Part shown: one piece after another, positions 48,655 through 55,021 of the stretch | Numbering within the stretch: the first letter of the stretch is position 1 | Layout: every line of letters starts with the position of its first letter | Source: Subtercola sp. PAMC28395 | Lineage (GTDB): Bacteria; Actinomycetota; Actinomycetes; Actinomycetales; Microbacteriaceae | Assembly: GCF_018889995.1 (NCBI RefSeq) | Contig: NZ_CP076547.1 | Location: forward strand, 2,604,001 to 2,668,000 | Length of the DNA stretch: 64,000 nucleotides | Reading direction: 5' to 3' | Notes under the pieces: generated by a model | Database searches by the model: none | The model's input: only the letters and a program-made list of their open reading frames with translations | What the model was told of the DNA's origin: nothing | Program-made: the position numbers and the translations under genes

Positions 48655-49689
48655 CTAGTACCCGGCCTGCGGGTCGACGACACCCAGGAATCTGCCGTCG
48701 CCGAGGAATGCGACGACGTTCTGGCGAAGACGTTCCGCGAGCAGGGGCGCTGTCATCTCGGGCGTGTCGGCCGCATGCGGGGTGATGATCACATTCGGTG
48801 CGCTCCAGAGTGGATGCCCGTCGGGCAGTGGCTCAGGATCGGTGACGTCGACCCCGGCCCCCGCTATGGCACCCGAACGGAGTGCGTCGACAAGGGCGTC
48901 GGTGTCGACCAGGCCGCCACGCGCGATGTTCACGAGAATGGCGGAAGGCTTCATCACGGCAAACTGCGCCTGCCCGATGAGGTGCTTCGTGTCGTCGGTC
49001 ATTGCGGCGGCGAGCACGACGATGTCGGCGGTCGCCAGGGCCTCGTCGAGATCATCCGTCGACAGCGTACGGTCTGCTCCCGGCAGTGGTTCTTCGCTGC
49101 GGCGGACAACCGTGGTCTTGACACCGAACGGAGCCAGCAGGCGCAGCAGTTCGACGGCGATGCCGCCGGCACCCACGATGGTGACCGAGAGGCCGTAGAG
49201 GGACTCCCCTGTCGACTCGTGCGACCACGTCGTTGCCGCCAGACGCTCCGGCAGTCGCCGAAGAAGGGCAAGGGTGAGCATGAGGGCGTGCTCGGCGACA
49301 GGTTGCGCGTAGGCCCCCTTTGCGCTCGTCCAGAGCAGCTGGGGCCGGTCACAGCGCTTGAGGAGCCCGGAGAAAGCATCGACCCCCGCCCATGGCAACT
49401 GCACCCACTGGATTGCGGGATGGGTCGTGAGGATCTGCTCCAGTCGCTCGGGCTCGCTCGAGGTGAGCCAGACGATCGCCCTTGTTCCGGCGTCGAGCTC
49501 GGCGATCTGGCCGCCGCCGTCGAGCACGGCGTCCACGAAGAGGGCTCCCGGTTTCGGCAGGATGGTGATGCTCCCCGGGGTCGGTCGCCGATCACTCGCG
49601 AGTGGCACGGAATCCGTGGCCGTCACTGCGCGGTGCTGGCCAGCCCTTGGGCCTGCGGTCTCCGGCTGGTCGTAACGGGAAGTGCTCAT
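48655..49689 (-). CDS. D-isomer-specific 2-hydroxyacid dehydrogenase
   Basis: 344 residues. NAD(P)-binding domain with TIVGAGGIAVELLRLL; catalytic Arg in VNIARGGLVD, Glu in DPEPLPDGHPLW and His in IITPHAAD. The N-terminal catalytic-domain half has the short form (AIVWLTSSEPERL) seen in phosphoglycerate-dehydrogenase-like and glyoxylate-reductase-like enzymes; there is no ACT domain. Substrate is uncertain. Its ATG overlaps the stop of the upstream ABC ATPase gene (ATGA), so the two are co-translated, although an obvious functional link is missing. Confidence 0.88.
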   Translation of the reverse strand: MSTSRYDQPETAGPRAGQHRAVTATDSVPLASDRRPTPGSITILPKPGALFVDAVLDGGGQIAELDAGTRAIVWLTSSEPERLEQILTTHPAIQWVQLPWAGVDAFSGLLKRCDRPQLLWTSAKGAYAQPVAEHALMLTLALLRRLPERLAATTWSHESTGESLYGLSVTIVGAGGIAVELLRLLAPFGVKTTVVRRSEEPLPGADRTLSTDDLDEALATADIVVLAAAMTDDTKHLIGQAQFAVMKPSAILVNIARGGLVDTDALVDALRSGAIAGAGVDVTDPEPLPDGHPLWSAPNVIITPHAADTPEMTAPLLAERLRQNVVAFLGDGRFLGVVDPQAGY

Positions 49690-50498
49690 TGGGCGCGACC
49701 GTTAGCCGCCCGGGCAAGGCCTGCGACGTACGGATGCCGCGGATCAGCGAGCACATCGTCGATGGTGCCGAGCCCCACGACCACACCCTCGTGCAGAACG
49801 ATGATGCGGTCGACGGAACGCCGCAATATTTCGAGGTCGTGGCTCACGATCAGAGCCGTCGCACCGCGCTCGCGCTGGAGAGTCGAAATGACGTCGACAA
49901 CTGCTCCCCGCACTGACGGGTCGACCCCTGCTGTGGGTTCGTCGGCGATGAGGAAGACGGGGTCGAGGATCAGTGACCGTGCGATTGAAACGCGTTGTCG
50001 CTGGCCGCTGGAGAGCTCGTGCGGGAGTTTCAGCGCCGTTCCGACAGGCAGGAGCAGAGCATCCAGAAGCGTGGCCACACGAAGACTGGCGCTCTTCTCG
50101 TTGAAATGCTTGTCGCGTGCGAACAAGGGCTCTGCGACCGATTCGGCGACGGTCATGTTCGAGACGAGACTGAGCGAGGAGTCCTGCGGGAGGTAGCCGA
50201 CGCCGAACGTCAGGCGGTTGAACTTGCGGCCGCGAACGCCCTTGCGGAGGTCGAAGCCGAGCACGTTCAGGGTTCCTCCGACGACCCGGGCGAGCGAATC
50301 GCGTGAACCGCCGCTGCCCTGGCCAGCCGCAACGCGGGCGAGAGTCGACTTGCCAGAGCCGCTCGACCCGATGAGCCCCACGATCTCCCCCGGCTCCAGG
50401 CGCATGCTCACTCCGCGCACCGCAGTGTACGAAGGGCTGACGCTGTGTGCGGGGTACTCGATGGTCACGTCTGACGCGACCATCACTGGCTCACTCAT
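49686..50498 (-). CDS. ABC transporter ATP-binding protein
   Basis: 270 residues: Walker A GSSGSGKST, Q-loop LPQDSSLSL, signature LSSGQRQRVSIA, Walker B VFLIADEPTAG and switch His in IVSHDLE. The form (DPSVRGAVVDVISTLQRERG, and ADPRHPYVAGLARA near the end) is that of Opp/Dpp-type oligopeptide importers, subunit F. No permease or binding protein is encoded nearby, so it is an orphan in this window. The start codon region is triplicated in tandem (50485-50532). Confidence 0.9.
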   Translation of the reverse strand: MSEPVMVASDVTIEYPAHSVSPSYTAVRGVSMRLEPGEIVGLIGSSGSGKSTLARVAAGQGSGGSRDSLARVVGGTLNVLGFDLRKGVRGRKFNRLTFGVGYLPQDSSLSLVSNMTVAESVAEPLFARDKHFNEKSASLRVATLLDALLLPVGTALKLPHELSSGQRQRVSIARSLILDPVFLIADEPTAGVDPSVRGAVVDVISTLQRERGATALIVSHDLEILRRSVDRIIVLHEGVVVGLGTIDDVLADPRHPYVAGLARAANGRAQ

Positions 50499-50532
50499 GC
50501 ACTGGCTCGCTCATGCGCTGGCTCACTCATGA
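50485..50532. repeat. 16-bp tandem triplication at the ABC ATPase start codon
   Basis: Three units, ACTGGCTCACTCATGC (50485-50500), ACTGGCTCGCTCATGC (50501-50516) and GCTGGCTCACTCATGA (50517-50532), each containing a minus-strand ATG and the codons for M-S-E-P. The ATG at 50530 opens an 11-codon frame whose TGA overlaps the true ATG at 50498 (ATGA). The ATG at 50514 opens a 7-codon frame ending 5 nt inside the gene. The good ribosome-binding sequence GAGGGGGAG is about 15 nt before the first ATG. Confidence 0.8.
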
Positions 50533-50556
50533 AACGAGCCTAATGCTCCCCCTCGG

Positions 50557-52458
50557 TCACTCCGCGTGAATGGCGCGTCGATCGGCCTCGAGTTGCATGA
50601 GCTCCCGTTGAAGGGAGCGGTACTGCTCCGGAGCACCCACTGCGTCTGTGCGCTGAAGCTGCCCGAGCACTTCTTCTTTTCTCCGTACCAGGTGGCGTTC
50701 GACCAGTGACGAGGTGACGCGCCTCAGGTAGACATCGAGTTCGCGCTCTGGCCGTTCGGGGATCGGAGCTACCGCGAGCTGTTCCACCAGGGTGGTGAAC
50801 TGTGGGGGCACGCGCCCCACGATCGTCGCCACCCAGTCCGGCCGCTCGTAGTCATCGATCGACACGGCGATGGCATCGCGCACCGCGGCGAGCGGTTCGC
50901 TGTTGAAGCCGACGAGGGATGCCCGTGCGAGCAGTTCCCGACCCACAGACTTCGGGTACTGGAGCATAGCCATGAGCGCATCGCGTTCGAGCCTCACCTG
51001 GGTGGTGCCAGGCAGCTGCGTCAGCGAGAAAGCGGATACCGGGGAAGCTGTCGAGTCTGAGGCCGTTGCCAGCTGTCGGGAAGCGTTCTCGGAGCGGGAC
51101 GAACTCTCTGAACGGGAAGAAGCCGGCGTATCTGGCGAACTGCGCCTGCTTGCCTCAACGGCCCGCGAGACCTCCGCGACGTCGATTCCCAGCAGTCTCG
51201 CCAGTTCCCGGGTGTAGCCGGGGCGGAGCGCTGGGTCGCGAATGTCGGCGACCACAGGTGCTGCGTCGCGCAGGGCGCCTGCCCGGCCTTCTACGGTGTT
51301 GAGGTCGTAGTTAGAGAGCTTCTGCCTGATGACGAACTCGAACATCGGTTTCTTCGACGAAATCAGGCGCCGAACGGCGTCGTCGCCCTTGTTCAGCCTC
51401 AGATCGCAGGGGTCGAGCCCATCGGGGGCGACGGCGACGTACGTCTGGGCCGCGAACCGCTGTTCTTCGCTGAAGGCACGGAGGGCGGCCTTCTGGCCTG
51501 CAGCGTCGGGGTCGAAGGTGAAGACCACCTCACCCAACCCGGCGGTGTCGTCACCAAGAATGCGCCGGATCATCTTGATGTGGTCGACACCGAATGCCGT
51601 TCCACACGTAGCGACTGCCGTCGTCACACCGGCGAGGTGACACGCCATGACGTCGGTGTAGCCCTCTACAACGACGACCTGCCGCCCGCGCGCGATGTCG
51701 CGCTTGGCGAGGTCCAGACCGTAGAGCACCTGCGACTTGTGGTAGACCGGCGTCTCGGGTGTGTTGAGATACTTCGGGCCCTTGTCATCGTCGAAGAGCC
51801 GCCGGGCGCCGAAACCCACGGTCTGGCCGGTCTGGTCGCGAATGGGCCAGACCAGGCGGCCCCGGAAGCGGTCGTAGCTGCCACGCTCCCCTGTGCTCGT
51901 GAGCCCTGCAGCACTGAGTTCGTCGTTCGTGAACCCTCGGGTTCGAAGGTGCTTGCCGAGGTTGTCCCATCCCTGCGGCGCGTAGCCGACGCCGAAACGC
52001 TCTGCCGCTGAAGCGTCGAACCCCCGCTCGCCGAGAAAGCGACGGCCTTCATCGGCACCGTCGGTCATGAGCTGCTCGATGAACCACTCCCTGGCGGCTT
52101 CGTTCGCGGCCAGGAGCCTTGCCCTGTTGCTGTGATCGCTGGCCTGGCCGCCGTCTTCGTAGTGGAGTTCGAAGCCGATACCGGAGGCGAGTCGTTCCAC
52201 CGCTTCACTGAAGGTGACATGGTCCATCTTCTGGAGGAAGGTGAAGACGTCACCCCCCTCACCGCAACCGAAGCAATGGTAGTAGCCCACCTGGGGGCGC
52301 ACGTGAAAGCTCGGTGACCGCTCATCGTGAAACGGGCAGAGCCCCTTCATGGAGCCGACCCCGGCACTCTTGAGCGTGACGAACTCGCCGACGACATCGG
52401 CGATGTTGATGCGCGAACGAACCTCGTCGATGTCGGCGCGCCGGATGAGCCCGGCCAT
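50557..52458 (-). CDS. dnaG: DNA primase
   Basis: 633 residues. DnaG makes the RNA primers for replication. The N-terminal CHC2 zinc finger (CPFHDERSPSFHV with HCFGCGEGGD) is intact, followed by the RNA-polymerase domain and Toprim (VVEGYTDVMACHLAG, then FTFDPDAAGQKAALRA) and the DnaB-binding C-terminal domain. No Shine-Dalgarno sequence stands before the ATG at 52458; instead the start lies in a 17-bp tandem triplication linking it to the dgt stop, so it probably depends on translational coupling. Confidence 0.96.
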   Translation of the reverse strand: MAGLIRRADIDEVRSRINIADVVGEFVTLKSAGVGSMKGLCPFHDERSPSFHVRPQVGYYHCFGCGEGGDVFTFLQKMDHVTFSEAVERLASGIGFELHYEDGGQASDHSNRARLLAANEAAREWFIEQLMTDGADEGRRFLGERGFDASAAERFGVGYAPQGWDNLGKHLRTRGFTNDELSAAGLTSTGERGSYDRFRGRLVWPIRDQTGQTVGFGARRLFDDDKGPKYLNTPETPVYHKSQVLYGLDLAKRDIARGRQVVVVEGYTDVMACHLAGVTTAVATCGTAFGVDHIKMIRRILGDDTAGLGEVVFTFDPDAAGQKAALRAFSEEQRFAAQTYVAVAPDGLDPCDLRLNKGDDAVRRLISSKKPMFEFVIRQKLSNYDLNTVEGRAGALRDAAPVVADIRDPALRPGYTRELARLLGIDVAEVSRAVEASRRSSPDTPASSRSESSSRSENASRQLATASDSTASPVSAFSLTQLPGTTQVRLERDALMAMLQYPKSVGRELLARASLVGFNSEPLAAVRDAIAVSIDDYERPDWVATIVGRVPPQFTTLVEQLAVAPIPERPERELDVYLRRVTSSLVERHLVRRKEEVLGQLQRTDAVGAPEQYRSLQRELMQLEADRRAIHAE

Positions 52459-52494
52459 CAGATGAGCCCGGCCATCAGTTGAGCCCGGCCATCA
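52444..52494. repeat. 17-bp tandem triplication spanning the dgt-dnaG junction
   Basis: Units at 52444-52460, 52461-52477 and 52478-52494; the first two are identical and the third differs by one base. On the minus strand each unit reads TGATGGCCGGGCTCA plus two bases, so each holds an ATG followed by A-G-L codons. The dgt TGA overlaps the first ATG (52492), whose 5-codon frame MAGLN ends in a TGA overlapping the second ATG (52475). That frame, MAGLI, ends in a TGA overlapping the dnaG ATG (52458). This is a three-step stop/start ladder. Confidence 0.9.
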
Positions 52495-53838
52495 GTGCCC
52501 AGGCGATTCAGCCCGGCGCTGGCTCGCCAGCGCCGGTGAAAGATCGAAGGGTGCTGCCGGTGCGAGGAGTCGCCGGTGCCAGGCCAGAGCCGACTGGTCG
52601 GTGAGGCTCGCCACCTGGTCGACGATCACCCGCTTTCTCGCGGCGTCTGAAGCTGCATCACGCCAGTCGCCGACGAACGCCGGCTCGAGGTTCTGGTCGC
52701 CGCTTGCATGAAGGAGCTCGGCGAGTTCGACCAGCAGGGCACGCTGGGTGCGGTAGATCGGCTTGCGTTTGGAACTCGACATCACGAAAGCGGCGACGAT
52801 ACCTTTCAGAACGGCGATCTCGACCTCGACACTGCGGGGAACCACCACGTTCGCGCCGAACCGGATCAGCTGGGCTCCGGGGTACGCCTCGCGGGTTGCC
52901 TGGGTTGCTGCACCCGCGAACCTCCCGATCAGCTGGCTGGTCAGATTCTTGAGCTTCGCCTGTGCGACCCGGCCGCCGTCCCACTCGTCGACCCAGACGT
53001 CGAGGGAGTCGAGCCTGTCGAATGCGGCAATCAGTTCTTCATAGCGGAACGATCCGCCAACCCACGATTGCATGCTGGTCACCAGCTCTTCGTGATTGAC
53101 CCGGGAACCCAGTGCCGACACATCGATGTAACCGTTCAGTACGGCATCTTCGAAGTCGTGCACCGAATAGGCGATGTCGTCGGAGAGATCCATCACCTGC
53201 GCCTCGATGCAGAGCACTCTCGGGGGTGCCTCCTCGCGGAGCCACTCGAAGACCGCCCTGTCGTCGGCATAGACCCCGAACTTCTGCCGACCGCTCGCGT
53301 CACTGACCGCGTCATCGCTCGCCCACGGATACTTGCAGCTGGCGTCGAGGGATGCCCGGGTGAGGTTCAGCCCTTGACTCTCACCGTTCGGCCCCACGAC
53401 TTTGGGCTCGAGTCGGGTGAGAATGCGCAGGCTTTGGGCGTTGCCTTCGAACCCGCCGATGTCTGCCGCCCATTCGGAGAGCGCCCGCTCGCCGTTGTGG
53501 CCGAAGGGCGGATGCCCGAGGTCGTGCGCGAGGCACGCCGTGTCGACCACATCTGGGTCGAGGCCGAGGCTCGACGCGAGCTCACGCCCGACCTGGGCGA
53601 CCTCGAGGGAGTGGGTCAGCCGGTTGCGGGCGAAATCGAGGTCGGCCGTGGGGCTGAGTACCTGGGTCTTCGCGGCAAGACGACGAAGGGCGCCGGAGTG
53701 CAGGAGCCTGGCCCTGTCCCTGGCGAAATCGCTTCGCCTGCTGTAGTGCTCCTCGGGTAGAGGTCGCTCGGTGTCGTGGAGCGAATATCCCTCGACCGCG
53801 TCGCCGACTACCGTGGCTGCCTGCACGGTGTCAGCCAC
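52492..53838 (-). CDS. dgt: Deoxyguanosinetriphosphate triphosphohydrolase-like protein
   Basis: About 448 residues from the GTG at 53838 (GGAG 7 nt upstream; the adjacent GTG at 53841 is also possible), overlapping the dusB stop by 8 bp. HD-domain motifs: RLTHSLEVAQVG, HDLGHPPFGHNGE (HD pair) and MDLSDDIAYSVHD. It hydrolyses dNTPs to deoxynucleosides and triphosphate and so influences the dNTP pool for replication. Commonly adjacent to dnaG in actinobacteria, as here. The C-terminal domain is of the usual type. Confidence 0.93.
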   Translation of the reverse strand: MADTVQAATVVGDAVEGYSLHDTERPLPEEHYSRRSDFARDRARLLHSGALRRLAAKTQVLSPTADLDFARNRLTHSLEVAQVGRELASSLGLDPDVVDTACLAHDLGHPPFGHNGERALSEWAADIGGFEGNAQSLRILTRLEPKVVGPNGESQGLNLTRASLDASCKYPWASDDAVSDASGRQKFGVYADDRAVFEWLREEAPPRVLCIEAQVMDLSDDIAYSVHDFEDAVLNGYIDVSALGSRVNHEELVTSMQSWVGGSFRYEELIAAFDRLDSLDVWVDEWDGGRVAQAKLKNLTSQLIGRFAGAATQATREAYPGAQLIRFGANVVVPRSVEVEIAVLKGIVAAFVMSSSKRKPIYRTQRALLVELAELLHASGDQNLEPAFVGDWRDAASDAARKRVIVDQVASLTDQSALAWHRRLLAPAAPFDLSPALASQRRAESPGH

Positions 53839-55021
53839 CACTGTGCTCCAATTCGGCACCGGCGAGCTCGGCGAGGCCCGGTGTGTCGAGCGAGCGTGAC
53901 TCGAGCCACTTGTTCGGAAGTGCAGGGCGCTTGGGGCGACCGGCGCGACCGCGAGGCCCTTCGGCGTCGACGCCGGGATAGGGCAGGCTGCCGTCGAGGG
54001 TTGCGAGCAGGTCATCCATCTCCGACAGGCTCGTGACCATGGCCAGTGCCGTTCGAATTTCGTGACCCACCGGATAGCCCTTGAAGTACCACGCGACGTG
54101 CTTGCGGATGTCGCGGCACGCCCGCTCCTCGCCATCGTAGAACTCGGTCAGGAGCTCCGCGTGGCGGCGCAGAGCCCGCGCGACATCGCCGAGGGGTGGC
54201 TGCACGCGGGAGGCCAGGGACTCGGCTTCGGTGATCTCGCCGGCGCGAGCCCGAAAGGCTGCGGTGAGATCGGCGAACAACCATGGCCTGCCGAGGCACC
54301 CTCTGCCGACGACCACGCCGTCGCACCCTGTCTCGTCGACCATGCGGAGCGCGTCGTCGGCCGACCAGATGTCACCGTTGCCAAGCACAGGGATGCTGGT
54401 GATCGTCTCTTTGAGCTTGCTGATGGCCGACCAGTCCGCGTGACCAGAATAGAAGTCCGCGGCCGTGCGGGCATGCAGGGCAATCGAGGCGACACCGGCA
54501 CCCTCTGCGGCGCGGGCCGCTTCGAGATACGTCAGGTGATCGTCATCGATGCCCTTGCGCATTTTGACCGTGACCGGAATGTCACCGGCAGCGGTGACAG
54601 CCGCTTCGACGATTCCGCGGAAGAGATCGCTCTTCCAGGGCAAGGCCGCGCCCCCGCCCCGGCGTGTGACCTTCGGTACAGGGCACCCGAAGTTCATGTC
54701 GATGTGATCGGCGCGGTTCTCTGCCACCAGCATGGTGACCGCCTCGCCCATCGTCTTGGGGTCGACGCCGTACAACTGGATGGACCTGATGGTCTCTGAA
54801 GGGTGGTGGGTGATGAGTCGCATCGACTCTGGCGTGCGTTCGACGAGGGCACGGCTCGTGATCATCTCGCTGACGAAGAGGCCCGTGCCGTACTCGCGGC
54901 AGAGTCGCCGGTACGCGGTATTCGTGACGCCGGCCATCGGGGCGAGCACAACGGGCACGTCCAGTTCGATCGGGCCGATTGTGAACCCCGGGGTGCGGGT
55001 GAGAGTGGGAAGGGAAGACAT
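53831..55021 (-). CDS. dusB: tRNA-dihydrouridine synthase B
   Basis: 396 residues from the ATG at 55021 with GGGAG 10 nt upstream. FMN TIM-barrel: VVLAPMAGVTNTAYRRLC, IDMNFGCPVPKVTRRGGGAAL (catalytic Cys), PVTVKMRKGIDDDHL, HARTAADFYSGHADWS and VVGRGCLGRPWLF. The C-terminal RNA-binding helical domain includes REIRKHVAWYFKG-like sequence (DIRKHVAWYFKGYP). It reduces uridines in tRNA to dihydrouridine. The order dusB-dgt-dnaG with overlaps suggests one transcript. Confidence 0.95.
   Translation of the reverse strand: MSSLPTLTRTPGFTIGPIELDVPVVLAPMAGVTNTAYRRLCREYGTGLFVSEMITSRALVERTPESMRLITHHPSETIRSIQLYGVDPKTMGEAVTMLVAENRADHIDMNFGCPVPKVTRRGGGAALPWKSDLFRGIVEAAVTAAGDIPVTVKMRKGIDDDHLTYLEAARAAEGAGVASIALHARTAADFYSGHADWSAISKLKETITSIPVLGNGDIWSADDALRMVDETGCDGVVVGRGCLGRPWLFADLTAAFRARAGEITEAESLASRVQPPLGDVARALRRHAELLTEFYDGEERACRDIRKHVAWYFKGYPVGHEIRTALAMVTSLSEMDDLLATLDGSLPYPGVDAEGPRGRAGRPKRPALPNKWLESRSLDTPGLAELAGAELEHSGG

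Follow-up and report, generated by a model that had tools for sequence, protein, structure and literature searches.

Tandem repeats at the 5' end of genes, whose number can be changed by slippage, are known from simple-repeat contingency (phase-variation) loci. The array described here, at the junction of dgt and dnaG in Subtercola sp. PAMC28395, differs from these in that it belongs to an essential housekeeping gene and in that its repeat number is compared between species only (one versus three units). A closer parallel is found in the short-overlap gene pairs expressed by termination-reinitiation (-1 overlap, TGATG; -4 overlap, ATGA), which, as far as the excerpts of PMC6728339 and PMC10666635 go, are likewise co-directional, share a base between stop and start, and do not need a strong Shine-Dalgarno (SD) sequence in every case. 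The dgt-dnaG junction departs from such pairs in that its overlap unit is triplicated, so that a pair of five-codon cistrons separates the genes, and in that its coupling is inferred. Coupled leaderless small ORFs, as characterised in mycobacteria in the available part of PMC4633059, offer a further comparison, although the dgt-dnaG ladder, unlike them, is not leaderless by sequence. Finally, the TAACTGA direct repeats of Beggiatoaceae (excerpts of PMC4679880) also contain a stop, also stand in tandem just 5' of gene starts and also accompany genes mostly devoid of SD sequences; those repeats, however, are genome-wide heptamers without start codons for which a role as binding site was proposed, whereas the dgt-dnaG unit is locus-specific and carries both a stop and a start. 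Among the top matches in open-licence papers we recognised no description of tandem stop/start minicistrons or of a dgt-dnaG ladder.

The array lies on the minus strand of a 64,000-nt window (contig NZ_CP076547.1, positions 2,604,001 to 2,668,000), to which all coordinates refer unless stated otherwise. It occupies 52444..52494 and consists of three 17-bp units placed head-to-tail over the stop of dgt and the start of dnaG, namely unit 1, TGATGGCCGGGCTCAAC (52478..52494), unit 2, TGATGGCCGGGCTCATC (52461..52477), and unit 3, again TGATGGCCGGGCTCATC (52444..52460), which contains the dnaG ATG and is followed by CGGCGC. Unit 1 differs from the other two by a single base (AAC/ATC). Tandem Repeats Finder (TRF) reports the array at 52444-52495 with a period of 17, 3.1 copies, 97% matches and a score of 97, the highest among 26 rows within the window. 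The upstream gene, dgt (52492..53841, minus strand, with the start called by a simple script), encodes a dGTP triphosphohydrolase (NCBIfam NF002829, 591 bits, cut-off 385), and the downstream gene, dnaG (50557..52458, minus strand), encodes a DNA primase of 633 aa (NCBIfam TIGR01391, 387 bits, cut-off 284), which is the sole DnaG match in the genome.

Reading through the units, the TGA of dgt (52494-52492) shares base 52492 with a first ATG, which opens the minicistron MAGLN* (52475..52492, minus strand); its TGA ends on 52475, the first base of the second ATG, from which the minicistron MAGLI* (52458..52475, minus strand) runs into a TGA ending on 52458, and there the third ATG opens DnaG with the N-terminus MAGLIRRADIDEV. 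Every stop in this ladder thus overlaps the following ATG by one base, which is the stop/start arrangement of coupled pairs. The two genes themselves are not directly adjacent in PAMC28395, as 33 nt separate the dgt TGA from the dnaG ATG, and the overlap between them is restored solely by the minicistrons. Sequence and TRF therefore confirm the sequence-only reading in its central description, a 17-bp unit repeated three times with a TGATG ladder across the junction. An assembly artefact was considered and is thought unlikely, since the genome is a single contig, the array measures 51 bp and unit 1 carries its own substitution. Within the final codons of dgt we also observed a perfect inverted repeat, GGCGCTGGC-GA-GCCAGCGCC (52515-52534), which, with at most one mismatch, has one site in PAMC28395 and none in the 11 other genus genomes; the reversed pattern, used as a control, matched once each in two genomes.

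With three copies dgt and dnaG share one frame, with 11 sense codons between them, and leakage at the dgt TGA would yield a Dgt-DnaG fusion with an 11-residue joint. An open frame of 644 aa does surround the 633-aa match, but a shared frame is expected by chance in one case of three and the dgt TGA bears no mark of leakiness, so that we consider such read-through exceedingly improbable.

The distribution of the unit among relatives bears on its age. In the nearest Subtercola genome (G006), whose DnaG is 97% identical, exactly one unit stands at the same place (CAC-TGATGGCCGGGCTCATC-AGG) and dgt and dnaG overlap directly; the 34-nt difference between the two junctions equals two units, and both proteins are intact in both genomes. 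The number of units can thus change while the first codons of DnaG stay unaltered, as had been proposed from the sequence. Outside this pair, TGATG is absent from the dnaG start in the ten other genomes among the 12 of the genus compared (PAMC28395 and G006 included), so that the count among relatives is one unit in G006 and none in those ten. A two-unit pattern allowing up to three mismatches was found in PAMC28395 alone among the 12 genus genomes, and so was a doubled dnaG start among 398 genomes of the family, where the pattern detects doubled starts of the form ATGGCNGGNNNNAT only. A plasmid collection yielded three dnaG matches at 73-76% identity and was of no use for comparison. Given the single unit in G006, parsimony suggests that the TGATG-overlapped gene pair is probably older and the 17-bp triplication recent, although a loss of units in G006 (from three to one) is a conceivable alternative direction, and the difference of one versus three is one between species, each represented by one genome.

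The same distribution speaks to a role at the DNA level, in which a regulator of dnaG would recognise three tandem sites. By eye the unit looks partly palindromic, but it amounts merely to the dgt stop plus codons 1-5 of DnaG, is single in G006 and, as a two-unit pattern, has no other match in the genus; we regard this as very unlikely.

How dnaG is translated depends on the signals at its start. Anti-SD pairing at the three ATGs reaches -2.4, -3.6 and -3.6 kcal/mol. Across 288 called genes the median is -5.25 kcal/mol, and at 1000 random sites it is -3.0; none of the three ATGs is therefore preceded by SD pairing beyond the random level, in agreement with the earlier statement that dnaG lacks an SD sequence. 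In Microbacteriaceae as a whole, a TANNNT box ends 6 nt (30 loci) or 7 nt (26 loci) 5' of dnaG in 56 of the 80 best among 126 family loci, while nine other spacer blocks, examined as a control, show it in 0 to 2 of 79 loci; this box is likely, judging by its position, a leaderless promoter. The 24 loci lacking it include all eight of Subtercola and all six of Agreia, and three Rathayibacter loci (L070, L087, L088) scored as boxless, in which, by eye, a box probably precedes a later start. Within 100 nt 5' of dnaG, TANNNT occurs in none of the 12 genus loci, and a leaderless promoter for dnaG in PAMC28395 was accordingly rejected.

These signals bear on the possibility that the minicistrons idle and that dnaG is started at ATG3 by independent initiation, by ribosomes that slide there after terminating dgt, or on a transcript whose 5' end lies within dgt. 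The apparent leaderless-type starts of dnaG in most of the family loci examined favour it, as does the re-initiation over longer ranges reported in studies cited by PMC10666635, as far as its introduction relates them (73 nt, even 150-850 nt), which would imply that ATG3 might be reached without intermediate steps. Against it stand the lack of SD pairing above random, the missing TANNNT box and a start region predicted to be tightly folded (z -2.18 and -2.90, against -0.57 and -0.06 in G006), although the tighter predicted fold may reflect just the repeats and the nearby palindrome. On balance we consider a bypass of the minicistrons possible but rather unlikely; dgt could nonetheless harbour a promoter of a different type from which dnaG is transcribed.

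Since dnaG lacks a leaderless-type box and its SD pairing does not exceed the random level, its translation is most likely coupled to that of dgt. We favour a joint reading, with a probability of about 0.6, in which a recent triplication of the TGATG unit, stepwise termination-reinitiation and a nearly neutral or mildly down-regulating array are combined. The 17-bp stretch containing the whole dgt-dnaG overlap would have been tandemly triplicated; ribosomes finishing dgt would restart at ATG1 and terminate five codons on at ATG2, and a restart there would lead to a stop on ATG3 and a further restart into dnaG. The minicistrons would thereby place every stop on a start and carry the coupling over the 33-nt gap. 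Since some loss is likely at every re-initiation step, DnaG output per reading of dgt would be equal to or below that with one unit. The array probably has a nearly neutral or a mildly down-regulating effect, and it could survive because copying the 17-bp stretch would leave both proteins unchanged.

Published reporters lend this stepwise route some plausibility and also set a price on it. In native E. coli pairs, according to the excerpts of PMC10666635, a gap of +14 nt costs 40-80% of re-initiation, one of +38 nt (about 35-38) (almost) abolishes it, and the final 15 nt of the upstream gene are sufficient for it. Were this distance rule to hold here, dgt could not feed ATG3 over 33 nt, whereas the 18-nt minicistrons could relay ribosomes. 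In the part of PMC6728339 at hand, E. coli pairs deprived of the SD sequence lose 60-90% of re-initiation in three cases and all of it in a fourth, and one uncoupled pair is unaffected, which implies that an essential gene might not be able to afford three steps devoid of SD sequences. The earlier proposal that dnaG depends on repeated re-initiation therefore stands as plausible, favoured by the absent leaderless box and the published distance dependence, and the dependence itself stays an inference.

About 2 kb from the dgt-dnaG array a second one, of three 16-bp units with ATGs at 50530, 50514 and 50498, covers the start of the next gene (50484..50531, minus strand). This gene, downstream of dnaG (49686..50498, minus strand), encodes an ABC transporter ATP-binding protein with matches to numerous ABC ATPase families; among the 25 matches listed, none reaches its cut-off. 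In both PAMC28395 and G006 the first ATG opens an 11-codon minicistron, MSEPAHERASA* (50495..50530, minus strand, in PAMC28395), which stops on the third ATG, its TGA, ending at 50495, overlapping the ATG of the ABC gene at 50498 (ATGA); the second ATG opens MSEPVHE* in PAMC28395 and MREPVHE* in G006. A -10-like box, TAGGCT (50537..50542, minus strand), lies 6 nt before the first ATG at 50530, within the 6-7 nt spacing of a -10 box from an RTG start, and the first ATG follows TA[AG]GCT by 6 or 7 nt in all 12 genus loci. As far as the excerpts of PMC4633059 describe them, the coupled leaderless small ORFs of mycobacteria are similar in having an ATG in leaderless position and a TGA that overlaps the next start (RTGA), here with an 11-codon ORF between; the second array differs from them in being a tandem copy of the gene's own start and in being leaderless by position alone. 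It is common to PAMC28395 and G006, while the ten other genus loci have a single start. Its conservation was considered as proof of selection and dismissed: the two genomes differ at one of 73 nt, yet 10% of the 165 regions compared 5' of called genes likewise show 0 or 1 differences.

The background of array turnover in this lineage can be judged from 400 kb around the window (contig positions 2444001-2844000), where TRF finds 65 arrays with a score of at least 50 and a period of 10-60. Gene calls were made by a simple script, which placed the ABC start 15 nt inside the gene, so that the array there was counted as intergenic. Called ORFs contain 33 of these arrays, and in 32 of the 33 the period is a multiple of 3; another 23 are intergenic, where random placement would give about 5 (roughly five times over expectation); eight lie across a stop, and the single one across both a start and a stop is the dgt-dnaG array. 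Similarly, of 51 arrays in 400 kb of G006, 30 lie inside ORFs, 28 of which have a period divisible by 3, and 16 are intergenic against about 4 expected. Array lengths were then compared for 69 arrays, found with a second detector, against the collinear G006 sequence (~90% identical). Among the 31 not wholly inside an ORF, four have the same length, seven differ by whole units and ten differ otherwise, a class that may include indels beside the array, while four have weak and six no orthologous flanks; of the 21 arrays outside ORFs that can be compared, 17 thus differ in length between the sister genomes. For the 38 inside ORFs the corresponding numbers are 22, 5, 3, 1 and 7. The reverse comparison, starting from the arrays of G006, gives 3, 2, 9, 2 and 2 outside ORFs and 22, 3, 1, 2 and 4 inside.

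Because arrays outside genes turn over this rapidly, selection need not be invoked, and such turnover, filtered by what genes tolerate, is enough to explain the dgt-dnaG array. Moreover, copying any 17-bp stretch that contains TGATG is sufficient to build such a ladder, because 17 divided by 3 leaves a remainder of 2; roughly one third of random duplication lengths would do the same. Within 40 nt of called starts there are 31 array rows in 1.2 Mb of PAMC28395 and 9 in 0.4 Mb of G006; by eye, only the dgt-dnaG and ABC arrays among those 31 copy a gene's own start out of frame. G006 may hold a further case of out-of-frame copying, at an 11-bp array of two copies (B 303557), provided that the ATG involved is the start. 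In PAMC28395, a 12-bp in-frame array at about 2718100-2718133 (G000:C1; L115, about 14100) repeats a GTG start just 3' of a TAGCCT box and is another copied gene start, which lengthens the protein.

It had also been suggested that the array is a tuning device for primase. A selected device of this kind would set the primase/dGTPase ratio by unit number, each unit multiplying output by the re-initiation efficiency and slippage supplying reversible variants. Consistent with this suggestion, the sister genomes differ in unit number while retaining intact dgt and dnaG, and a second start array of like kind, at the next gene, is common to both. Yet the triplicated array is found in one genome alone, short non-genic arrays turn over rapidly throughout the lineage, and the ladder arises automatically from the copying of a TGATG stretch. 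Tuning of primase by the array is therefore unsupported, though conceivable, and we hold the selected device to be unlikely. A broader version, in which the ladder is a slippage-adjustable multi-step attenuator of a replication gene and copied starts have recurrently reset dosage in the lineage after loss of the leaderless promoter, appears more doubtful still.

On the joint reading favoured here, the dgt-dnaG array is a new variant of termination-reinitiation coupling, of modest interest. It offers a natural one-versus-three test of compounding re-initiation, in that one of two sister genomes with near-identical DnaG has two five-codon TGATG cistrons more than the other: a lossy re-initiation should reduce primase with each unit, and a nearly lossless one should leave the ladder silent. 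It is likewise an example of how an essential gene can absorb, at its very start, a duplication whose length is not a multiple of three.
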